Made by a program: the position numbers and the translations under genes. Positions 45,369 to 57,702 of a DNA stretch of 64,000 nt are shown here, one piece after another. Source of the DNA: Verrucomicrobia bacterium LW23 (lineage in GTDB: Bacteria; Verrucomicrobiota; Verrucomicrobiia; Methylacidiphilales; UBA1321); NCBI GenBank assembly GCA_003054695.1, contig QAZA01000001.1, positions 1 through 64,000 of the forward strand, given 5' to 3'. Each line of letters starts with the position of its first letter. Within the stretch, counting starts at the first letter, position 1. The notes beneath the pieces were generated by a model that saw only the letters and a program-made list of their open reading frames with translations, ran no database searches and was not told where the DNA came from.

Positions 45369-45973
45369 TCAGGGGCACCTCGGGGGGCGCTTATGGGGCG
45401 CGATGGAAATTATGGGGAAAAAGAAGGAAACGCTTGGGGCAGCGATGTTTGATGCCGACCGGTAAGGAGGTAGCACGCTCGGTGAAGTGTCCCGCTCGAT
45501 TAATGCAAGTAATTGGTGCCCTGCGCCTTGGGCGATAACAGTGACGAATAGCAGCCGTTTTCGCATCGTTACAACGACATCTAATAACTTGCGAAACCAG
45601 CCACATTTCGCTGGCGATCGGTTGCGGTGGCCACTATAACGCCTTCGTTGCGACAAGGCACCGTAATACTTTGCATAAAAAAGAGCAAACGCGGGCATTG
45701 GGCAATTTTGCGGCTTGCTTTATAAATACCTTAATTTCAGAGACATGCAACTTGTTTGATGGGCGGCTGGGAAGCTATTAGATCCCCAGCTTTGGCCATT
45801 AAAAAAAGTTTGTGAAACTTTTCACAAATAGAGTTGCCTGTTTCCAAACGGGTATGATACCAATCCTCATCCACATATCTTCCATGCCTTTGATTACGGC
45901 CCTTTATCCCCACGTGCGTCAAAGCGTGCTGCCCGCAGCTTCGGCTCCCCTATCCACTTTCTGATCTCCAGCC
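45369..45973. other. Long divergent regulatory region between rex and actA
   Basis: This 605-bp region has no gene. It is more AT-rich than its surroundings from about 45650 on. It contains the Rex operator (45810-45827) and should hold the promoters of rex and of the respiratory operon. Hexamers with good spacing could not be assigned with confidence. Confidence 0.6.
45810..45827. promoter_or_regulatory. Rex operator upstream of actA
   Basis: TTGTGAAACTTTTCACAA is a perfect 7-4-7 inverted repeat matching the known Rex consensus TTGTGAA-N4-TTCACAA. It lies 146 bases before the actA ATG and 442 bases before the rex start. The rex gene is the divergent neighbour, which strongly supports the site. 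Confidence 0.9.
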
Positions 45974-46624
45974 ATGGCCAATATCTTCCCCCGCTCGGCC
46001 AATTGGTTGCCGCTCCAGCTCATTACCTGCATCGCGCTTCTAGGAGCGGTTGTGCCGGTGGGGCTGTGGTATTACTTCACCCCGAAGTATACGCGAGTCG
46101 GCTACATGCCAAACCAGCCCGTCGATTTCAGCCACCGTATCCACGTCGGTCAGGTCGGTCTGGATTGCCGTTACTGCCACTCGTTTGTGGAGAAGTCGAG
46201 CCACTCCAACGTGCCGACCACGCAGACGTGTATGAACTGCCACAGCCAGATTCAGGCAGGCAACCCGCGCCTGCAGCCGGTGCGTGACAGCTTTGAGACG
46301 GGCACGCCGATCAAGTGGGTCAAGATTCACCAGGCGCCCGACTACGTTTACTTTAACCACTCCGTGCACATTGCGCGCGGCGTCAGCTGCGTGAGCTGCC
46401 ACGGCAAAGTCAACGAGATGCCGGTGGTGTGGCACGATAAATCCCAAAGCATGAAGTGGTGTCTGGATTGCCATCGCGACCCCGGCGCCAATGTCCGCCC
46501 CGTAGAGAATGTGTTTAACCTGGATTGGGCGCCCCAGGGTACGACTCAGCGCGAGCTGGGCGACAAGCTGGTTAAAGACTGGAAAATTACTCCGCCCACC
46601 TCCTGCCAGGGCTGCCACCGATGA
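45974..46624 (+). CDS. actA: Alternative complex III subunit A, pentaheme cytochrome c
   Basis: ACIII is a quinol:electron-acceptor oxidoreductase that replaces cytochrome bc1. This subunit has an N-terminal membrane anchor (LQLITCIALLGAVVPVGLWY) and five heme sites: CRYCH, CMNCH, CVSCH, CLDCH and CQGCH. FDFSHRIH/YFNHSVHIARG-type segments supply distal His ligands. 216 residues is normal. Its stop overlaps the actB start by ATGA. First gene of the operon. Confidence 0.95.
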   Translation: MANIFPRSANWLPLQLITCIALLGAVVPVGLWYYFTPKYTRVGYMPNQPVDFSHRIHVGQVGLDCRYCHSFVEKSSHSNVPTTQTCMNCHSQIQAGNPRLQPVRDSFETGTPIKWVKIHQAPDYVYFNHSVHIARGVSCVSCHGKVNEMPVVWHDKSQSMKWCLDCHRDPGANVRPVENVFNLDWAPQGTTQRELGDKLVKDWKITPPTSCQGCHR

Positions 46625-49600
46625 AACGCGTATTCCAACATCCCCCCGAAACCCAGACGGGCCGCAAATACTGGCGCAGCCTCGGCGAACAGGCCGATAC
46701 GCCGGAGTTCCGCACGTGGCTGGAGCGGGAATTTCCCGCCGGCCACGCCCAGATGGAAAATGACGGCCTCTCGCGCCGCAATTTCCTGCGCCTGATGGGT
46801 GCCAGCGTGGCGCTTGCCGGCTTTGGCCTTACAGGCTGCCGCCGTCCTGAGGCGTACGTCGTTCCCTATACCAAAAGTCCGGAGTGGATTATCCCTGGCA
46901 AGGCGCTGCAATACGCCACCGCCATGCCCCGCCGCCGCGGTGCGGAGCCGATTCTCGCGACCTCCTACGAGGGGCGTCCCACCAAGATTGATGGCAACCA
47001 CCTGGCTTATAAGCAGGGCGGTTTCTCCAAGAATTACGGCCCGTCCGACAGCTTTGCGCAGATCTCGATCCTTGATCTGTACGATCCTGAGCGCGCGAAG
47101 GAATACAAGCAGGGTGGCAAGGTCATTGACGCCGACGGCAAGGAAGTCGTCAAGTTTGAGACGAAGGATAACGTCACGTTTATTCAGGAGCTGGAGAAGC
47201 TTGCCGCCACGTTTGGTGATGGCGATGGCCTGGCCTTCCTGGCGGACGCCTCCAACTCTCCGACTCGCGACCGCCTGCGTGGCGAGATTGAGAAGAAATT
47301 CCCGAAAGTCATCTGGGCGGAGTACGATCCCGTCGAGGATTCCGCCGAGCTCGCAGCCTCCAGGGCAGCGTTTGGTGATCGTGTTATCTTTACGCCCGAC
47401 TGGGATAAGGCCGACGTCGTTGTCGCGCTCGATTCCGACTACCTGGGCGGTGAAGAAGGTGGCCACGAAGCCGTTCGCGGCTGGGCTAATGGCCGTCGCA
47501 AGCTGGGCAAGGGCGAGACGATGAACCGCGTGTACGCGGTGGAAGGCCGCCTGACGCCCACGGGCGGCATGGCGGATCACCGCCTGCGCATCGCCTCCTC
47601 CAAGGTTGGTCTTGTTGCGCTGCATCTGGCCGGCAAGCTGGGTATCCAGGGCCTGCCCACGGTGCACGTCAAGGCAAAGGGCAAGGAGACGGAGGACAAG
47701 GCCTGGGGCCTGACGGATCGTGAGGACAAGTGGGTTGCCGCAATGGCGGAGGACCTGCTGGCCCATAAGGGCAAGTCGATCGTCACCACCGGCTTTACCC
47801 AGCCTGCCGCGGTGCACGCTCTGGCGCACCTGATCAACAACGCCCTGGGCAACTTTGGCGCGACGATCACGGCCATCAAGCATCCCCGCCCGGAATCGAA
47901 GACGATTGCCGAGCTGGCGGCCGCCGCCAAGGCTGGCAAAGTCAAGACTCTTTTCCTGCTAAACTACGCCAACCCCTCCTATACCGCCCCGGTGGATCTG
48001 GAGTGGGACAAGGCGATTGCCAAGGTGCCGACCGTTGTGCAGCTGACGCACGACATCAACGAGTCGTCCAACACGGCCAACTGGATCGTTCCCGCCGCTC
48101 ACTACCTGGAGAGCTGGGGCGACGCGTGGGGCCGCAACGGCACCTACATGTGCACGCAGCCGATGATCCTGCCGCTCTACAACGGCCTCTCGGAGATCGA
48201 GCTTCTTGCGCGTATCCTCGGCATCCTCAAATACGAGGCGCCCAAGGCGGACGCTCCGAAGTCCGATCTGCCCCCCGGCTTTGGCCCGCAGCTGGTGCAG
48301 GAGACCTTCAAGACGATCAGCAAAGGCACCGATTTTGCCAACGACTGGACCCAGTTTGTGCACGACGGCGTGCTGGCCAACAGCGCCGCGCCCAAGGCTC
48401 CCCTCGCGTTCAACGCGGGTGAGGCCACGAAGCTGGCGACGCAGGCCCTGGCCCTGCAGATCAAGCCCGGCGGCTACGAGGTTGTGTTCTATCCCGGCCC
48501 GTCCACGGACGATGGCCGCTATAACAACAACGGCTGGACCCACGAGCTTCCCGATCCGATCACCAAGCTGACGTGGGACAATGCCGCGCTTATAAGCCCC
48601 GCTACGGCCACCCGCCTGGGTGTGCCCGATCGCCGAGCGCCGATCGACGAGACCCCGTGGTCGGATGCCGAGTCCGCCATTCCCGTCCCTGTTTTCAGGA
48701 TCACGATCGATGGCCGCACGCTCGACATTCCCGTGCTGGTCGTGCCTGGTCAGGCCGACGAAACTATCTCCATCGCACTGGGTTACGGCCGCTCGGTCGT
48801 CGGTAACGTGGGCATCGGCACGGGCCGTAACGCCTACCTCATCCGCTCCAGTGCCAAGCCGTGGATCTGCCCGGATGCCGGCATTGAGAAGACCTCCGAC
48901 ACCTACGTGCTGGCCACCACGCAGGAGCACCACGTAATGGAAGGCCGCGCGCTGGTCCGCGAGGGCTCGCTCGATTTCTACAACAAGCATCCCGACTTTG
49001 CCCACAACATGGGCATTCAGCTCCACGGCAACAAGGAGCTGTACAATAATCCCCAGCTCGTCCCCGGCAAGCGCGATATCCACCAGTGGGGCATGGTGAT
49101 TGACCTGAACAGCTGCACCGGTTGCACGGCGTGCATCGCGGCGTGCCAGGCGGAGAACAACATTCCTATCGTCGGTAAGGATCAGGTGATGCGCGGCCGC
49201 GAAATGCACTGGCTGCGTATGGATCGCTACTACCAGGGCGACATCAACGACCCGACTGTGCTTAGCCAGCCCGTTGGCTGCCAGCAGTGCGAGAACGCCC
49301 CGTGCGAAACGGTGTGCCCGGTCAACGCGACGATTCACTCGGAAGACGGCCTGAACGTGATGGCCTACAACCGGTGCATCGGCACCCGTTACTGCGCCAA
49401 CAACTGCCCGTACAAGGCGCGCCGCTTCAACTTCTTTAACTACAACGAGCGCCCGATCAAGGAGCTTTACTACGGCCCGCTGGCCCAGAAGGGATCGCCC
49501 GAGACGATCAAGATGCAGAAGAACCCGAACGTTACGGTCCGCGTCCGCGGCGTGATGGAAAAGTGCACCTTCTGCGTCCAGCGTATCGAAGACGCGAAGA

Positions 49601-50058
49601 TTACCCAGCTGACGAAGGCCCGCGTGACGAACGCCTCCGCGCCGGTCAGCAAGCTGATCCCCGCTGATACCGTGGTAGCCGCCTGCCAGCAGGTGTGCGC
49701 GGCCGAGGCCATTGTCTTCGGCAACATCGACGACCCCAACAGCCACGTGGCCAAGCTGCGCGGCGACCCCCTGCACGACAACAAGGGCGCCGACCCCCGC
49801 AACTACGAGTTGCTCCACTACCTCAACACCAAGCCCCGTGTCACCTACCAGGCGCGCATTCGCAACGTAAACGCCAAGGTGCCCGGTGCGGAAGCCCTGC
49901 TGGCCACGCCCGAGACGTGGCACGATGCCCATCACGGTGGCGGCGACGATCACAAGGAAGCCGGCCACGGCCACGGAAACGACGGTCACGGCCATAAGGA
50001 TGACCACGGTCACAAGCCGGACCACGCGCCCGCCGCTCAACCTCAAGGTGCCCACTAA
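46621..50058 (+). CDS. actB: Alternative complex III subunit B, molybdopterin-like/Fe-S protein
   Basis: A twin-arginine motif SRRNFLRLMG (51-60) directs export, followed by a hydrophobic stretch and Cys73. The large N-terminal domain resembles molybdopterin oxidoreductases but carries no cofactor in known ACIII. The C-terminal ferredoxin-like domain starts at CTGCTACIAAC (Cys832-842) and has CQQCENAPCETVCP, CIGTRYCANNCPY, CTFC and ACQQVC, enough for several Fe-S clusters. The last ~45 residues form a His/Asp/Gly tail, HGHGNDGHGHKDDHGHKPDH. Length 1145 is slightly above usual. Confidence 0.95.
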   Translation: MKRVFQHPPETQTGRKYWRSLGEQADTPEFRTWLEREFPAGHAQMENDGLSRRNFLRLMGASVALAGFGLTGCRRPEAYVVPYTKSPEWIIPGKALQYATAMPRRRGAEPILATSYEGRPTKIDGNHLAYKQGGFSKNYGPSDSFAQISILDLYDPERAKEYKQGGKVIDADGKEVVKFETKDNVTFIQELEKLAATFGDGDGLAFLADASNSPTRDRLRGEIEKKFPKVIWAEYDPVEDSAELAASRAAFGDRVIFTPDWDKADVVVALDSDYLGGEEGGHEAVRGWANGRRKLGKGETMNRVYAVEGRLTPTGGMADHRLRIASSKVGLVALHLAGKLGIQGLPTVHVKAKGKETEDKAWGLTDREDKWVAAMAEDLLAHKGKSIVTTGFTQPAAVHALAHLINNALGNFGATITAIKHPRPESKTIAELAAAAKAGKVKTLFLLNYANPSYTAPVDLEWDKAIAKVPTVVQLTHDINESSNTANWIVPAAHYLESWGDAWGRNGTYMCTQPMILPLYNGLSEIELLARILGILKYEAPKADAPKSDLPPGFGPQLVQETFKTISKGTDFANDWTQFVHDGVLANSAAPKAPLAFNAGEATKLATQALALQIKPGGYEVVFYPGPSTDDGRYNNNGWTHELPDPITKLTWDNAALISPATATRLGVPDRRAPIDETPWSDAESAIPVPVFRITIDGRTLDIPVLVVPGQADETISIALGYGRSVVGNVGIGTGRNAYLIRSSAKPWICPDAGIEKTSDTYVLATTQEHHVMEGRALVREGSLDFYNKHPDFAHNMGIQLHGNKELYNNPQLVPGKRDIHQWGMVIDLNSCTGCTACIAACQAENNIPIVGKDQVMRGREMHWLRMDRYYQGDINDPTVLSQPVGCQQCENAPCETVCPVNATIHSEDGLNVMAYNRCIGTRYCANNCPYKARRFNFFNYNERPIKELYYGPLAQKGSPETIKMQKNPNVTVRVRGVMEKCTFCVQRIEDAKITQLTKARVTNASAPVSKLIPADTVVAACQQVCAAEAIVFGNIDDPNSHVAKLRGDPLHDNKGADPRNYELLHYLNTKPRVTYQARIRNVNAKVPGAEALLATPETWHDAHHGGGDDHKEAGHGHGNDGHGHKDDHGHKPDHAPAAQPQGAH

Positions 50059-50061
50059 GCC

Positions 50062-51582
50062 ATGGCCAAATCTTCCAACAAAGTCGATCTCTACCCGTAC
50101 TGGGACCAGTCCGCGCCCCGGCCGGCTGGTATTACGGAGGCTCAGGAGAAAGTCGCCAAGGCGGCGATTCTTCGTCCGCAGCTCATCGGCAACGCGCCTG
50201 GTGTCAAGCGCAGCTATAACTGGATCACCGAGCGCGTGTGCGGCATTATCGAGGCGCCGACTCCCCTCTGGTGGTTTATCGCTCTCGCCATTACCGCGAC
50301 GACGACGCTGCTGACCATCGGCGGCGTGCTGTATCTCATCGCCACGGGCGTCGGCGTGTGGGGTCTCAATCACCCGGTCGGCTGGGCGTGGGACATCACC
50401 AACTTCGTGTTCTGGATCGGTATCGGCCACGCCGGTACTCTGATCTCGGCCATCCTGTTCCTGACGCGCCAGAAATGGCGTACGTCGGTCAACCGCTCCG
50501 CGGAGGCCATGACGCTGTTCGCCGTGTGTTGCGCGGGTATCTTCCCCGCCGTGCACGTCGGTCGTATCTGGATGGTGTGGTTCCTGGCTCCGCTGCCCAA
50601 CGCCAACGGTATCTGGCCCAACTTCCGTTCCCCGCTGCTGTGGGACGTGTTTGCGGTATCCACCTACTTTACGGTGTCGGTTCTCTTCTGGTACGTCGGC
50701 CTTATTCCTGACCTGGCCACCCTTCGCGACCGCGTCAAAAGCCGCTGGGCCAAGTGGTTGTACGGCACTTTTGCCCTGGGTTGGACGGGCTCCAACAAAC
50801 ATTGGAGCAACTACGAAATGGCGTACATGATCCTGGCGGGTATCTCCACCCCGCTGGTGCTTTCGGTGCACTCGGTCGTGTCGTTCGACTTCGCGACATC
50901 GGTGGTGCCCGGCTGGCACACCACGATCTTCCCGCCTTACTTCGTGGCCGGCGCCATCTTCGGCGGCTTTGCGATGGTGCTTACCATCCTGATGCCCGCC
51001 CGCCTGATCTACGGCCTGGAAGATCTGGTAACCGACCGCCATATCGACCTGATGTGCAAGATCATCCTGCTGACCGGCTCCATCGTCGGTTACGCCTACC
51101 TGATCGAGCTTTTCATCGCCTGGTACGGCGCGAACCCCAACGAGCGCTTTGCGTTCTGGAATCGCGTGACCGGTCCTTACTGGTGGGCGTTCTGGTGCAT
51201 GATGTCGTTCAACGTAATTGCGCCCCAGCTTTTCTGGGTCGACTCCTGGCGCCGCAACTGGATCGTCATTTACATCGTCATCAACATCGTCAACGCGGGC
51301 ATGTGGTTTGAGCGTTTCGTCATCATCGTGACGTCCGTGCACCGCGACTACCTGCCTGGCGCCTGGGGCATGTTCCACCCGACGGTAACCGACATCCTGA
51401 CTTTCGTCGGCACGTTCGGCCTCTTCCTCACGTTGTTCCTCCTTTTTGTCCGGTTCCTGCCGATGATCGCTATCGCGGAAGTGAAAGCGATTGCCCCTGA
51501 GTCGGATCCTCACTATCACCCGCCCGGTGGCCATGACCACCACGGCGACGCAACCAAGACATCTACTCACGCCAAGGCATGA
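50062..51582 (+). CDS. actC: Alternative complex III subunit C, NrfD-like
   Basis: Polytopic NrfD/PsrC-type subunit that binds quinol in the membrane. About ten helices, with [20 protein letters not shown] at the start, [20 protein letters not shown], and [20 protein letters not shown] in the middle. The tail ends His-rich ([13 protein letters not shown]). 506 residues is normal. It starts three bases after actB; its stop overlaps actD by ATGA. Confidence 0.93.
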
Positions 51583-52124
51583 GCACACCTGATATTGCCA
51601 AAATTTACGGCATTGGAGCCGAGTTCAAGAGCGTCGTCGAGCTATACGAGGCCGCCGAGAAGGTTCGCGATCGCGGTTTCCAGTTCTGGGACGTTTACTC
51701 TCCGTTCCCGATCCACGGCATGGATCAGGCGCAGGGGCTCAAACGGTCCTGGGTGTCGGCCCTTTCGCTCATCGGCGGCTTTACCGGATTTACCACCGGC
51801 CTGCTGCTGGAGACGATCACCTCGGTGTTCGTCTACCCGATGATTGTGAACGGCAAGCCTTTCTTCAGCCTGCCCGCATTCTTCCCGGTCATGTTCGAGC
51901 TCACCATTCTGTTCACCGCATTCGCCACGGTGTTCGGCATGCTGGCCATCAACATGCTGCCCAAGTGGTACAACCCGGTGTTTAACTGGGATCGCTTCAG
52001 CAAGGTGACCGACGACAGCTTTTTTATTGTTATCGAAACCCTCGATCCACGCTTTGACGGCCCCAACACGGCGGCCTTCCTCAATTCCCTGGGCGGGACC
52101 AACATCACCTATATCTCGAAATAA
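51579..52124 (+). CDS. actD: Alternative complex III subunit D (DUF3341)
   Basis: The N-terminal cytoplasmic domain has [20 protein letters not shown] and [20 protein letters not shown], the DUF3341 signature. Two membrane helices follow, with [20 protein letters not shown] between. 181 residues is normal for ActD, which packs against ActC. ATGA overlap with actC. Confidence 0.93.
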
Positions 52125-52126
52125 TT

Positions 52127-52885
52127 ATGGTTCTCCGCTATTTCGTGATCAGCCTCTTCTTCGCCATACTATTTGTGGTGTTGATTGCTGGTCCCCGCGG
52201 CCAAAAAGGGCCGGGTCGCCCCTTCGAGTTCTTTGCGGATATGGATCGGCAGCCGAAGGTCAAGTACCAGACCACCAGCGAGTTTTTCGCTGACGGCATG
52301 TCTGCGCGCATGCCGGTGCCCGGTACTATTGCGATTACGATGCCCGCCCGCGAGACCTACTTTAACAGCGGCAAGTTTAACGCGACCACCTGGGGCAAAG
52401 GCTTTCCCGACAAGAACGACCTGACCGGCCAGCCCTTCCAGATTACCCGCGCCGACCTGCTGCGTGGCAAAGAGCGTTACGACATTTACTGCAAGGTGTG
52501 CCACGGCACCACCGGCGACGGCAAGGGCTTTACCTCCCAGTTCGGCCTCAGCGGTATCGCCAACCTGCACGACCCGAAGTTTATCACGATGGATGAAGGC
52601 GAAATCTTCCACACCATTACCGCTGGCAAGGGCCTGATGCAACCCTACGGCGCCAACATTACGCCCGAGGATCGCTGGAAAATCATCGCCTACGTCCGCG
52701 TGCTGCAGCGCAGCCAGAATGTGAAGGCCGCGGATGTTCCCGCCGACCTGAAGAAGGAGCTGCCTGCGCCCGCCGCAGCCGCCCCCGCGCCTGCCGCACC
52801 CGCTGCTCCTGCTACGGCCCCCGCGACCAAGCCCGGCGCCAGCGTAACGCCTGCCGCACCTCTTACCGTTTCCCTCGCCCAATGA
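52127..52885 (+). CDS. actE: Alternative complex III subunit E, monoheme cytochrome c
   Basis: After an N-terminal hydrophobic anchor (YFVISLFFAILFVVLIAG) comes a cytochrome c domain with CKVCHGTTGDGKG and a Met ligand probably in GLMQPYGANI. It passes electrons from ActA/B to the outgoing carrier or oxidase. The last 45 residues are an Ala/Pro linker-like tail. The stop overlaps actF by ATGA. Confidence 0.92.
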   Translation: MVLRYFVISLFFAILFVVLIAGPRGQKGPGRPFEFFADMDRQPKVKYQTTSEFFADGMSARMPVPGTIAITMPARETYFNSGKFNATTWGKGFPDKNDLTGQPFQITRADLLRGKERYDIYCKVCHGTTGDGKGFTSQFGLSGIANLHDPKFITMDEGEIFHTITAGKGLMQPYGANITPEDRWKIIAYVRVLQRSQNVKAADVPADLKKELPAPAAAAPAPAAPAAPATAPATKPGASVTPAAPLTVSLAQ

Positions 52886-54072
52886 GCCACTCCACCCCCA
52901 CACTTCCCAAACCAGAGTACGTTGCCGGCACGGGTTTTCTGCGCATGGTGCTGCTGGGCATTGGCGCCATTGCGATGCTCATCAGCATCATCGCTGCGTT
53001 CTTCATGACGGGTAAGCAGGTCGCTCACTCCTACCTGTTTGCCTACTTCTACTTCTTCACCATCGTGGGCGGCGCGTTCTTCTGGACGGTGCTGCACCAT
53101 GCGGTGGACGCCGACTGGTCGGTGGTTGTCCGCCGCCAGCTGGAGAATATCATCAGCTCGTGGATCGTGCTGGTCATTCTTTTCGTCCCGCTGGTCTTCT
53201 TGTATCCTTACCTGTGGAAGTGGCTTTTGCCTGAGACCCTCGCCGCCGACCCGATGCTTCAGGCCAAGCAGCCCTACCTCTCCTGGTGGTTCGCGGGGCT
53301 TCGCACCATCCTCATCTTCGGGCTCGTCGGCCTGTACGCCTACCTCCTGCGCAAGCACTCTGTCGATCAGGACAAGACTGGCCATCCTGCTTACACCATC
53401 AAGATGCGGTACCTGAGCATCCCCGGCATCCCCATCATCGCCCTCGCGATCACCTTCGCGGCGTTCGACTGGGTGATGGCGATGGATTACCACTGGTACT
53501 CCACGATGTTCGGCGTGTGTATCTTTGCCGGCGCGGTGCAGCAAAGCCTGGGCACGCTCATCATCACCTGCTTTATCCTCAAGCAGCTGGGCTACCTTAA
53601 GGAAGTGAACTCCGAGCACTTCCACATCATGGGCAAGTTTCTGCTCGCCTTCACCATCTTCTGGGCCTACGTCCACTTCTCCCAGTACATGCTTATCTGG
53701 TATGCCAACATTCCGGAAGAAACGAATTGGTTTGTGAAGCGCAACGAGGGGATGTGGACCTACCTGGCCATCCTGCTGACTGCCGGCCACTTTATCCTGC
53801 CCTTCATCTTCCTGCTGCCGCAGTGGGTCAAGAAGAATCCTCTGACGCTGAGCCTGATTGCCGGCTGGCTGCTGTGCATGCACGCGGTGGATCATTACTG
53901 GCTCATCCTGCCCAACTACCATAAGGATCTGTCGCCCAACATCCTGGACTTCACGTTCTTCATCGGTATCGGCAGCCTGGTGTTCTCGCAGATCATCCAC
54001 AGCATCGGCTCCAGCCCCACCATTCCCGTTCGCGATCCCCGCATCTTTGAGAGCCTGAAGATCAAGAACTAA
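52882..54072 (+). CDS. actF: Alternative complex III subunit F
   Basis: A polytopic subunit related to ActC, with about ten helices: AYFYFFTIVGGAFFWTVLHH, AAFDWVMAMDYHWYSTMFGV, FWAYVHFSQYMLIWYANIPE. These are typical of ActF. The segment HYWLILPNYHKD near the end is also conserved in the family. 396 residues is normal. Overlaps actE; the next gene follows after 16 bases. Confidence 0.93.
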   Translation: MSHSTPTLPKPEYVAGTGFLRMVLLGIGAIAMLISIIAAFFMTGKQVAHSYLFAYFYFFTIVGGAFFWTVLHHAVDADWSVVVRRQLENIISSWIVLVILFVPLVFLYPYLWKWLLPETLAADPMLQAKQPYLSWWFAGLRTILIFGLVGLYAYLLRKHSVDQDKTGHPAYTIKMRYLSIPGIPIIALAITFAAFDWVMAMDYHWYSTMFGVCIFAGAVQQSLGTLIITCFILKQLGYLKEVNSEHFHIMGKFLLAFTIFWAYVHFSQYMLIWYANIPEETNWFVKRNEGMWTYLAILLTAGHFILPFIFLLPQWVKKNPLTLSLIAGWLLCMHAVDHYWLILPNYHKDLSPNILDFTFFIGIGSLVFSQIIHSIGSSPTIPVRDPRIFESLKIKN

Positions 54073-54088
54073 CCCGGACTGAACGACC

Positions 54089-54529
54089 ATGAACAAAAAA
54101 GAATTCAGCACGGGGACATTCTACCTCATCATCCTCGTCATCCTGGGCGTGACCCTGCTCTTTCCCATCGCCAGCTTCCTGCTGGTGGCCCAAGGCCCGG
54201 CCGATACCCTGGAGGCTGAGCGCGAGCTCAACCGCCTGAAGGTGCATCACGAGCTGGAGGAAGCCGCGAACAAGACCGCCACCACCACCGCCTGGGTGGA
54301 CGAAAAGGCCGGCATTGCGCGCATCCCCATCGCCCGTGCCATGGAGCTGGAACTGCCGGCCCTTGCCGCCAGCAAGCCCGCCGCCGGCAACGCGCTCCCC
54401 GCGACCCCGGCCGCTGCGCCCGCCGCCCCGGCGCCGGCCCCGGCAGGCGCCACTAACGCTCCGGCTGCAACGCCCGCGCCCGCTCCGGCACCCGCCCCCG
54501 CGGCTACCAACGCACCGGCCAAACCCTAA
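54089..54529 (+). CDS. Small single-helix membrane protein, unknown
   Basis: The 146-residue protein has one N-terminal helix (STGTFYLIILVILGVTLLFP), a charged helical segment (AERELNRLKVHHELEEAANK) and a long Ala/Pro-rich C-terminal tail probably in the periplasm. No cofactor motif. Its place between actF and ccoS suggests a structural or assembly role in the ACIII-oxidase supercomplex, which is inference. Confidence 0.7.
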   Translation: MNKKEFSTGTFYLIILVILGVTLLFPIASFLLVAQGPADTLEAERELNRLKVHHELEEAANKTATTTAWVDEKAGIARIPIARAMELELPALAASKPAAGNALPATPAAAPAAPAPAPAGATNAPAATPAPAPAPAPAATNAPAKP

Positions 54530-54541
54530 ACCTTGCCCGCC

Positions 54542-54763
54542 ATGTCCACCGCCTTTCTCATGCCCACTCTGGTCATCTTCGGGATGATGATCGCGATGAG
54601 CGCCAGTGCGCTCGCCGCACTCTACTGGGCCACCCAGGATGGGCAATTTGTGGACATCGAAAAGAACGCGGAGTGCATCTTTGACAAGGACGAGCCCATC
54701 GGCAAATGCACCGACTATTTCCCTGGCCAGGCTCCCCAACCCCCCTTTAACAACGGCAAGTAA
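54542..54763 (+). CDS. ccoS: CcoS-like cbb3 oxidase assembly protein
   Basis: The 73-residue protein has one membrane helix (ASALAALYWATQDGQFVDIE) followed by the CcoS/FixS pattern 'W-A-x-x-x-G-Q-F-x-D' and a short acidic tail (CIFDKDEPIGK). CcoS helps load copper or heme into cbb3 oxidase subunit I. It lies four bases before ccoN. ATG 54542 is used. Confidence 0.75.
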   Translation: MSTAFLMPTLVIFGMMIAMSASALAALYWATQDGQFVDIEKNAECIFDKDEPIGKCTDYFPGQAPQPPFNNGK

Positions 54764-54766
54764 CAC

Positions 54767-56263
54767 ATGAGCGCAATTGGTACAGAAACCACTCTGGGAC
54801 AAGAATACAGCAAGGTCGTCCCGAATTACAGCGTGGAGGACGCTGCGGAACGCTCCGAGCTGGATGCGTCGACGCGTCTGCCCGTGCTCCTTTACCTGGG
54901 CTCCAGCATCTTCTGGCTGCTGGTGGGTACCGCCTTTGCGCTGGTCGCCTCCTTCAAGCTGCACGATCCCGCGCTGTTCGACAACGGCATGCTTAGCTGG
55001 CTCTCCTGGCCGCGCATGCGCATGGCGCACCTTAACGCCGTGGCTTACGGCTGGGCCGCGACGGCCGGTGTCGGCGTCGCCATCTGGCTTACCTCCCGAC
55101 TGTGCCGCACCACCCTGCGCTATCCGGCCATCGTTATTGTGGCGGGCGTCTTCTGGAATATAGGTGTCGCCATCGGCATCACAGCCATCCTCGCGGGTCA
55201 GTCCACCGGTGTGGAATGGCTGGAGTTCCCTCCTTACGTCGGCGCCATCCTGTTCGCCTCGTTCGGCCTTATTTCCCTTTGGACCCTCCTAATGTTCTGG
55301 TACCGCGCGCCCGGGCACATCTACGTGTCGCAGTGGTATATCCTCGCCGCCTTCTTCTGGTTCCCCTGGCTGTACGCCACCGCCTACCTGCTGATCTTCG
55401 TCTTCCCGGTGCAGGGCGTGCTCCAGCCGATCACGAACTGGTGGTATGGCCATAACGTTCTGGGCCTGTGGTTTACGCCTCTTGGCCTGGCCTCCGCGTA
55501 CTACTTTATCCCCAAGGTTATCGGCCGCCCCGTCTACAGCTACTACCTCTCTGCCCTGGGTTTCTGGTCGCTCGCCTTCTTCTACAGCTGGAACGGCGGC
55601 CACCACCTCATCGGCGGCCCGATCCCCCTCTGGGTGCAGACAGTCTCCATTGTGGCCAGCGTGATGATGATCATCCCGGTTGCGGTTACGGCCATCAACC
55701 ACCACATGACGTTGACCGGCAATTTCCATCTGCTGCTCACCAGCCCCACGCTGCGGTTCACGGTTTTCGGCGCCATGTGCTACACCCTCGTCAGCGTGCA
55801 GGGCATGTCGATGGCGATTCCCTCGCTCAACTTCGTCACCCACTTTACGCACTACACCGTGGGCCACTCCCACCTCGGGCTCTACTCCTTCTACAGCTCC
55901 ATCATGTTCGGCGCGATGTACTACATTGTTCCGCGCCTCGCGCAGTGCGAGTGGCCGTCCGCCGGGCTCATCAAGCTCCACTTCTGGTGCGTGTTTTACG
56001 GCAGCGCGCTGATGTTCGTCTGCCTTAGCGTGGCCGGTGTTACGCAGGGCACCATGTGGCTGGCCAAAAACGGCGATCTCCCCGCCTACGCTTTTATCGA
56101 TACCGTGCAGGCCACCCTCCCTTACCTCATCGGCCGCTCCGTAGCCGGCGTCATCCTGGCTCTGGGCCACGTTGCCTTCGCCTACCACTTCATGCTCATG
56201 GTTCTCCAGATGGGCAAGCACACCGACAAGCCCACCCTCTTTACCGAACCCACCAAAGCCTAG
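54767..56263 (+). CDS. ccoN: cbb3-type cytochrome c oxidase subunit I
   Basis: The catalytic heme-copper subunit. About twelve helices; MAHLNAVAYGWAATAGVGVA carries the low-spin heme His, WWYGHNVLGLWFTPLGLA the first CuB His, and YSWNGGHHLIGGPIP further ligands. FTHYTVGHSHLGLYSFYSSI holds the C-terminal heme ligands. It reduces oxygen to water with electrons from CcoO and the next cytochrome. The family usually has high oxygen affinity. 498 residues is normal. Confidence 0.93.
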   Translation: MSAIGTETTLGQEYSKVVPNYSVEDAAERSELDASTRLPVLLYLGSSIFWLLVGTAFALVASFKLHDPALFDNGMLSWLSWPRMRMAHLNAVAYGWAATAGVGVAIWLTSRLCRTTLRYPAIVIVAGVFWNIGVAIGITAILAGQSTGVEWLEFPPYVGAILFASFGLISLWTLLMFWYRAPGHIYVSQWYILAAFFWFPWLYATAYLLIFVFPVQGVLQPITNWWYGHNVLGLWFTPLGLASAYYFIPKVIGRPVYSYYLSALGFWSLAFFYSWNGGHHLIGGPIPLWVQTVSIVASVMMIIPVAVTAINHHMTLTGNFHLLLTSPTLRFTVFGAMCYTLVSVQGMSMAIPSLNFVTHFTHYTVGHSHLGLYSFYSSIMFGAMYYIVPRLAQCEWPSAGLIKLHFWCVFYGSALMFVCLSVAGVTQGTMWLAKNGDLPAYAFIDTVQATLPYLIGRSVAGVILALGHVAFAYHFMLMVLQMGKHTDKPTLFTEPTKA

Positions 56264-56296: not shown

Positions 56297-56914
56297 ATGA
56301 ACAGATTGCCCACACTCTTCCTCGGCTTCATCCTCACGTTCCTCTCGGCGTGGGTGGGTCTCATTGCCGTGCCGTACTTCCAGTTCGGGAACCTCAAGCC
56401 CGAAGTTACGGAGGATAACACCTACTCGCCCCCCAACCCCGCAGGCAGCGCCATCGCCGGCGAGCTCGTCTACGGCGCCAACGGTTGCGTCTACTGCCAC
56501 ACCCAGCAGGTGCGCAACAAGATCGATACCTCCGACGGCCAGTACGGATGGGGACGCCAGACGGTTGCCCGCGATTATATCTCGCAGCGCCGCATCTTCC
56601 TCGGCACCATGCGCACCGGCCCCGATCTGGCCAACACCGGCGCCAGCAAAAGCGAAGCGATGTGGCAGCACCTGCATCTCTATAATCCGCAGCACTTTGT
56701 GGGCGCCAGCATCATGCCCTCCTTCCGATATCTCTACGTAACGCAAAAGATCAAGGGCCAGCGATCCGCCTTCGCCCTCGACGAATCCCGCCTGCCCCCC
56801 GGCGATCGCCCGCCCGCCGGCTACGAAATTGTGCCGACCCAGGACGCCAGGGATCTCGTCGCCTATCTCCTTTCGCTCAATCGCAGCTACAGCCTTAAAG
56901 AGGTCAAAGAATAG
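56297..56914 (+). CDS. ccoO: cbb3-type oxidase monoheme subunit II
   Basis: An N-terminal membrane anchor (LFLGFILTFLSAWVGLIAVP) precedes the heme motif GCVYCHTQQVRN, with RRIFLGTMRTGPDLANTGA and the Met ligand region GASIMPSFRYLY. These are CcoO/FixO hallmarks. 205 residues is normal. The stop TAG shares its last base with the GTG start of the next gene. Confidence 0.93.
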   Translation: MNRLPTLFLGFILTFLSAWVGLIAVPYFQFGNLKPEVTEDNTYSPPNPAGSAIAGELVYGANGCVYCHTQQVRNKIDTSDGQYGWGRQTVARDYISQRRIFLGTMRTGPDLANTGASKSEAMWQHLHLYNPQHFVGASIMPSFRYLYVTQKIKGQRSAFALDESRLPPGDRPPAGYEIVPTQDARDLVAYLLSLNRSYSLKEVKE

Positions 56915-57702
56915 TGAAACCGGACACCGAAACCAACCTCCCTGTGAAGGACCCTTCCGACGCCCTCGTGCCGGAAGAGCACCTCGCCGAACATCACCCC
57001 GAGGCGAAGAATGCCGACTACGCAGAAGGCATCGACGTCACCCAGGTGCACGGCGCCATCCTTCGCGAAAAGAGCGATCCGCATGACGGCCAGGAGCCGA
57101 TTCCGGTGTGGATTATCGCCATCTGCCTCGGCGTCGTCCTGTGGGGCGGCTACTACCTGGGCAAGAATACCGCCAACTTCCGCCCCGATATCTTCGACAC
57201 CCACGCCGCTGCGATCGGCGGCCCCGCCGCGCCCGGCGCCCCCGGTGCCGCCGGCGATACCAAGGCCGAAGGCGCCGCCGCGGACTCCCCCGAAAAGCAA
57301 CTGGCTGCCCTGATGAAGGAAGGCAAAAGCGCCTACGGCTCCATCTGCGCCTCCTGCCACCAGGCGGGCGGCGGCGGCCAGCCCGGCACCTATCCTCCGC
57401 TGGCCGGCTCCGAGTGGGTTACGGGCGACTCGCACGTACTCATCCCTATCGTCCTGCACGGCGTGCACGGGCCGATGACCGTGGCAGGCGCGCAGTACAA
57501 CAACAACATGCAGGCGTGGGGCCCCACCATCAAGGACAAGAAGATGGCGGCGATCCTCACCTACATCCGCCAATCCTGGGGTAACAACGCCAGCCCCGTT
57601 ACCCCTGAGGAAGTGGGCAAGATCCGCGAAGCCTTCAAAGATCGCAAGACCCAGTGGACGGAAGCCGAGCTGTTGCAGCTGAAGGCGAACCCGCCCAAGT
57701 AA
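56914..57702 (+). CDS. Monoheme cytochrome c, CcoP-like position
   Basis: Cytoplasmic N-terminal leader with an acidic/His stretch (EEHLAEHHPEAKN), one membrane helix (VWIIAICLGVVLWGGYYLGK), an Ala/Gly linker and a cytochrome c domain with CASCHQAGGGG. CcoP normally has two CXXCH sites; only one is present, so this is a reduced CcoP or a different cytochrome that replaces it. The start is GTG 56914, overlapping ccoO. Last gene of the operon. Confidence 0.85.
   Translation: MKPDTETNLPVKDPSDALVPEEHLAEHHPEAKNADYAEGIDVTQVHGAILREKSDPHDGQEPIPVWIIAICLGVVLWGGYYLGKNTANFRPDIFDTHAAAIGGPAAPGAPGAAGDTKAEGAAADSPEKQLAALMKEGKSAYGSICASCHQAGGGGQPGTYPPLAGSEWVTGDSHVLIPIVLHGVHGPMTVAGAQYNNNMQAWGPTIKDKKMAAILTYIRQSWGNNASPVTPEEVGKIREAFKDRKTQWTEAELLQLKANPPK

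Follow-up and report, generated by a model that had tools for sequence, protein, structure and literature searches.

The palindrome between rex and the divergently oriented actA gene of Verrucomicrobia bacterium LW23 is most likely the operator of the redox-sensing repressor Rex encoded next to it. We place at about 0.88 the probability of this reading, in which Rex governs, by NADH/NAD+, the act-cco genes for alternative complex III (ACIII) and a cbb3-type oxidase as well as the nuo and atp genes for complex I and ATP synthase. The case is built on sequence evidence, namely on the operator site itself, the set of such sites in the genome, their conservation, and their co-occurrence with rex. 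In this bacterium, one sensor probably tunes the whole power-generating chain. With distinctly less confidence, we lean towards the broader view that Rex of Verrucomicrobiota acts as a master switch of the complete coupled chain (complex I, ACIII-oxidase, and ATP synthase, supplemented in some members by NDH-2 and a polyprenyl synthase), from which cytochrome bd is excluded in the organism studied here, with rex-less lineages losing the operators, and with Asn194 as a variant of the redox network in its family. The stretch of DNA that was analysed comprises 64 kb and is referred to as the window; its features and those of related genomes are listed in Table 1.

Table 1 Features of the window and of the genomes compared with it. 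Positions without a prefix are those of the window; prefixed positions refer to genomes (G), contigs (C), or loci (L)
Feature	Position	Strand	Remarks
rex, redox-sensing repressor, 207 aa	44745..45368	-	NCBIfam, Pfam, and PDB matches
Predicted Rex operator TTGTGAAACTTTTCACAA	45810..45827	.	Exact consensus match; kept in the aligned promoters of three relatives
Promoter-like block of actA	45828..45862	+	GTTGCCT at 45833-45839, TATGATA at 45853-45859; immediately 3' of the operator
actA, multihaem cytochrome c subunit of ACIII	45974..46624	+	Cytochrome_C7; first act-operon gene, conserved in relatives
actB, molybdopterin-like/FeS subunit	46621..50058	+	Fer4 domains, TAT-variant MoCo_extend_TAT
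actC, NrfD-like membrane subunit	50062..51582	+	NrfD; best PDB matches include the solved ACIII subunit C 6btm_C (E 3e-164)
actD	51579..52124	+	PF11821 ActD, 202 bits
actE, monohaem cytochrome c	52127..52885	+	Cytochrome_CBB3/Cytochrom_C
actF	52882..54072	+	Without Pfam match; same position conserved in relatives
orf146, small protein	54089..54529	+	No known family; homologues 29-50% identical, same position in relatives
ccoS-like, cbb3 assembly protein	54542..54763	+	PF03597 FixS, 25.8 bits (cut-off 23.1)
ccoN, catalytic subunit of cbb3 oxidase	54767..56263	+	Best solved relative cbb3 CcoN 3mk7_A (E 1e-58); COX1, 257 bits
ccoO	56297..56914	+	FixO PF02433, 71 bits, over cut-off
ccoP, cytochrome c subunit	56914..57702	+	TIGR00782 partial, under cut-off
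Genomic site before nuoI	C39:64764		42 bp before nuoI; nuoI, nuoJ, nuoL, and nuoM identified downstream (nuoI-M)
Genomic site at atpB	C45:296315		Overlapping with the longest ORF of atpB, whose probable internal start (ATG) is further downstream; atpB, atpF, atpA
Genomic site before nuoB	C11:260844		Before nuoB-C-D-E-F
Cytochrome bd and second haem-copper oxidase	G000:C25:98991-100418 and G000:C11:428391-430031		Source genome; without Rex site
rex-act gaps with N14 repeat	L040:13530-13909 (G004), L041:13658-14037 (G002), L102:4029-4386 (G006)
Apparently decayed operators before actA	L049:9724-9741, L056:3768-3785, L057 (aligned position)		Rex-less family members

The predicted operator and the promoter-like region of actA

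The original prediction had claimed a full match to the Rex consensus between actA and a divergent rex, and it proved exact down to the coordinates. The 18-mer shows no mismatch to TTGTGAAN4TTCACAA and none to the generalised Rex consensus TTGTGAANNNNTTCACAA, which was published by Ravcheev et al. 2012, as quoted in PMC5317091, and has been applied to Rex of Streptomyces avermitilis (PMC5355995). TTGTGAAACTTTTCACAA occurs only once within the window, and dinucleotide-shuffled windows contained no match to it, even when 3 mismatches were allowed. Apart from its centre ACTT, the 18-mer is a perfect inverted repeat of 14 bases; two of the four central bases are asymmetric, and because these break the symmetry, the opposite strand scores 2 mismatches. 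A gap of 605 bp separates rex (minus strand) and actA (plus strand), and the site is 146 bp away from actA and about 441 bp away from rex.

In the aligned actA promoters, the promoter-like block adjoining the operator is the best-conserved stretch after the operator itself, both in relatives with rex and in relatives lacking it. It is the putative promoter of actA, an assignment that we infer, since a scan of the act promoter detected no sigma-70 consensus whose elements are 16-18 bp apart.

The act-cco gene cluster

The genes actA to actF stand in order and include an NrfD-like ActC and an ActD domain, as in an ACIII operon, and the oxidase encoded behind them is of the cbb3 (C) type, its CcoN being nearest to cbb3 enzymes and accompanied by CcoO (FixO). 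Among proteins of solved structure, the relatives of CcoN are either cbb3-type or labelled as cytochrome-c oxidase, with 3mk7 ranking first; since its score with TIGR00780 (249 bits) stays under the cut-off of 583, CcoN is a divergent member. The ccoS-like gene, which reaches 21.2 bits with TIGR00847 (under the cut-off of 28.35), fills an apparent gap before ccoN. From actA to ccoP, a distance of about 12 kb, neighbouring genes overlap or are separated by at most 33 bp, and a terminator scan of the cluster gave 13 sites compared to 9.0 expected by chance, with no convincing break. Of the "fused ACIII-cbb3 respiratory operon" that had been proposed, one tight co-directional cluster actABCDEF-orf146-ccoS-ccoN-ccoO-ccoP was found, in which the genes are not fused; judged from this layout, act-cco is presumably transcribed as a single unit. 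The small gene orf146 between actF and ccoS is positionally conserved in many relatives and possibly encodes an accessory subunit.

The Rex protein

The window Rex exceeds several NCBIfam Rex equivalog cut-offs, is composed of an N-terminal winged-helix domain (PF06971, 62.7 bits, cut-off 27) and a Rossmann domain (PF02629, 66.8 bits, cut-off 22.3), and is matched by Rex structures in the PDB with E values from 5e-43 to 1e-38. The glycine residues G91, G93, and G96 of the GxGxxG motif and the residues R50 and K51 of the DNA helix are constant among 51 aligned homologues. Arg20 and Tyr102 are likewise retained in the alignment with homologues, and Asn194 in the C-terminal helix replaces Asp; all four family members as well as L137 and L139 have asparagine at this position, and the 45 other aligned homologues have aspartate. 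Asn194 aligns with D188 of T-Rex, whose residues Arg16, Tyr98, and Asp188 form the presumed redox-switch network, at the positions of which the window Rex has Arg20, Tyr102, and Asn194. With this variant, the NADH response of the window Rex could differ.

Predicted operators elsewhere in the genome

The source genome (6.6 Mb in 56 contigs, about 95% complete) contains four sites that match TTGTGAAN4TTCACAA with at most 1 mismatch, and none was found with the reversed control pattern; a stricter pattern with up to 2 mismatches returned the same four. Three perfect sites were observed versus 0.006 expected per 6.6 Mb under the dinucleotide model of the window. All four sites precede operons for oxidative phosphorylation. 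The weak sites C11:450226 and C25:6086, with 3 mismatches, were discarded because, with so many mismatches allowed, the control gave just as many matches in total. No Rex site was present in the regions surrounding cydA (cytochrome bd) and the second haem-copper oxidase; the operator is thus a mark of the coupled chain and not of the textbook target cytochrome bd. With operators at the genes for both halves of complex I and for ATP synthase, the prediction, which had been restricted to the quinol-to-oxygen module, extends to all of the coupled chain.

Conservation in relatives

Within the order, 60 genomes were searched and a genuine rex was recognised in four, i.e., the source genome, Verrucomicrobium sp. 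HJP_bin11 (G002), Verrucomicrobia bacterium Tous-C9LFEB (G004), and UBA1321 (G006); three further matches (E 2e-4 to 9e-4, below 30% identity) were not Rex-like. The rex-bearing genomes contain 4, 4, 4, and 3 sites, and the other 56 either none or 1-3 near the control rate. In the three relatives, rex is again divergent from act and a perfect site lies 137-138 bp before actA, the range for all four rex-bearing family members being 137-146 bp. Additional sites precede nuoB in G002 and G004, nuoI in G006, and atpB in all three; no site within 2 mismatches was found in the nuoI locus examined of G002, and nuoI of G004 has a weak match only. In the rex-less family members G011, G009, and G010, degraded sites with 1, 2, and 3 mismatches are aligned with the operator, 125-135 bp ahead of actA, and adjoin the same promoter-like block. 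These sites suggest that the operator decays once rex has been lost, with the reservation that the assemblies of G011 and G010 have a completeness of only about 65% and may simply lack the gene.

The rex-act gaps of G004, G002, and G006 harbour another inverted repeat, which fits TTGTGAA-N14-TTCACAA with 0-1 mismatch and is lacking in the window. In all three genomes, 277 bp separate it from actA and 54-76 bp from rex; its spacing exceeds that of the N4 operator by about one helical turn, and it is a possible candidate for an autoregulatory Rex site.

A scan of GTDB genomes with the window Rex yielded 55 loci, the new ones mostly from Akkermansiaceae, Verrucomicrobiaceae, Rubritalea, Luteolibacter, and Haloferula, with 55-63% identity; a recognisable act operon adjoining rex was present at none of the newly found rex loci. 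As had been expected if the prediction was correct, the palindrome before actA was kept in relatives: besides the four family members (4/4), 43 of the 46 act loci of other rex-bearing Verrucomicrobiota have a perfect site upstream of actA, in most cases at a distance of 21-84 bp from its start codon. Altogether, such a site precedes actA at 47 of 50 act loci of rex-bearing Verrucomicrobiota versus 0 of 31 act loci of rex-lacking relatives from the order of the window (Fisher P ~3e-19, a value uncorrected for phylogeny that overstates independence, as the genomes are related). Exceptions are Rubritalea marina (L244), which has rex and no site near actA, and G074 (L250), which has an imperfect site only. 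All 49 rex-bearing Verrucomicrobiota genomes searched carry sites (1-13 each), and those sampled precede nuoB, nuoD, nuoF, nuoG, atpB, and actA. TTGTGAAN4TTCACAA is thus found near promoters and together with rex, as in a Rex operator set, and by these comparisons of genomes the link between Rex and act is conserved.

Proposed mode of regulation

As long as NAD+ dominates, a Rex dimer would occupy the operator and block the actA promoter directly downstream. When NADH accumulates owing to scarce oxygen or excess reductant, Rex would be released and the act-cco cluster transcribed, whereupon alternative complex III would pass electrons from quinol to the cbb3 oxidase. With near-identical operators before nuoB-F, nuoI-M, and atpB, complex I and ATP synthase would be raised simultaneously, and Rex would serve as a single gain control of the whole coupled oxidative-phosphorylation chain. 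The operator abuts the promoter-like block in the window and is near the start codon in other Verrucomicrobiota; both positions suit the blocking of RNA polymerase. Binding of Rex, repression, and the response to NADH are properties predicted for these operators.

Alternative explanations

The consensus of CRP is TGTGA-N6-TCACA, which the operator fits exactly, and the site might be bound by an activator of the CRP/FNR family. Such an activator is, however, very unlikely, since the genome, which is nearly complete, has no match to the Crp/Fnr-type helix-turn-helix family PF00325 and none above the cut-off to PF13545, with control profiles being matched, and since the occurrence of the site tracks rex, the AA/TT on the inner side of each half-site does not vary, which is a feature of Rex operators, and most sites of other Verrucomicrobiota have a repressor-like placement close to the actA start. 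Very unlikely, too, is the view that Rex mainly autoregulates rex, with act as a bystander of the divergent layout. Although rex and act border on one intergenic region in all four family members, rex is distant from act in other Verrucomicrobiota and actA still has a perfect site of its own, the site in the window is closer to actA than to rex, and three relatives possess the separate spaced repeat nearer to rex.

The distribution of Asn and Asp at residue 194 raises the question of whether the variant Rex binds the same operators but senses the NAD+ level or another ligand instead of NADH/NAD+ as usual; we regard this as unlikely, as a single residue is changed, GxGxxG, Arg20, and Tyr102 are kept, and the target set equals that of Asp-bearing relatives. 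The probability that the palindrome is a functionless product of chance is negligible. Some rex-less genomes do have 1-3 chance-level sites, but the excess of perfect sites over expectation, the position of all four genomic sites before oxidative-phosphorylation operons, and the 47 of 50 act loci speak against it, and a chance origin of the site at 45810-45827 is rejected; the observation of a Rex consensus site is real. We retain control of act-cco, nuo, and atp by Rex as the preferred reading.

Comparison with known systems

Little has been described of how the transcription of alternative complex III is controlled; to our knowledge, the complex is absent from both Staphylococcus aureus and Bacillus subtilis. 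In S. avermitilis, Rex binds and represses nuoA1-N1, atpIBEFHAGDC, and cyd via TTGTGAAN4TTCACAA, and NADH lowers the binding (PMC5355995). The Streptomyces regulon, first described in S. coelicolor, shares the operator and the nuo and atp targets with the set reported here, whereas its oxygen-reductase target is cydA1B1CD (bd) rather than ACIII-cbb3, cydA has no site in the window's genome, and the phylum is a different one. Rex of S. aureus and B. subtilis belongs to the same repressor family and recognises TTGTGAAW4TTCACAA; its targets in S. aureus are anaerobically induced (fermentation-type) genes, and cytochrome bd and an NADH dehydrogenase are among those in B. subtilis (PMC2883068). The ACIII-caa3 superoperons of Acidobacteria likewise combine act genes and a following haem-copper oxidase in one cluster, but the oxidase is caa3 instead of cbb3, and Rex is not mentioned (PMC8407424).

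The only paper found that covers both Rex and alternative complex III concerns Caldithrix abyssi, where Rex is tied to a hydrogenase cluster and not to ACIII (PMC5317091). Neither Rex control of ACIII nor a Verrucomicrobiota Rex regulon centred on oxidative phosphorylation was reported in the open literature searched; the main regulon survey (Ravcheev et al. 2012) lies outside this literature and may predict act. We are thus dealing with a known regulator and a real, conserved new target set, the ACIII-oxidase genes, control of complex I and ATP synthase being already known in Streptomyces. A single operator that hardly varies and precedes the genes for complex I, ACIII-oxidase, and ATP synthase provides a testable rule for the conditions under which Verrucomicrobiota build their respiratory chain, and cultured rex-bearing relatives such as Haloferula rosea and Luteolibacter pohnpeiensis make it practically testable.

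Further sites in relatives

A perfect site in G002 (C15:98865) has no respiratory gene nearby and is probably due to chance. In G004, a one-mismatch site (L101:6001, G004:C3:6101) is located about 83 bp upstream of an ORF for a membrane protein, which is followed by a molybdopterin oxidoreductase-like gene. In Haloferula sp. BvORR071, perfect sites (L258:5001, L261:5001) lie directly before genes for an NDH-2-like dehydrogenase and a polyprenyl synthetase of the quinone-tail type.
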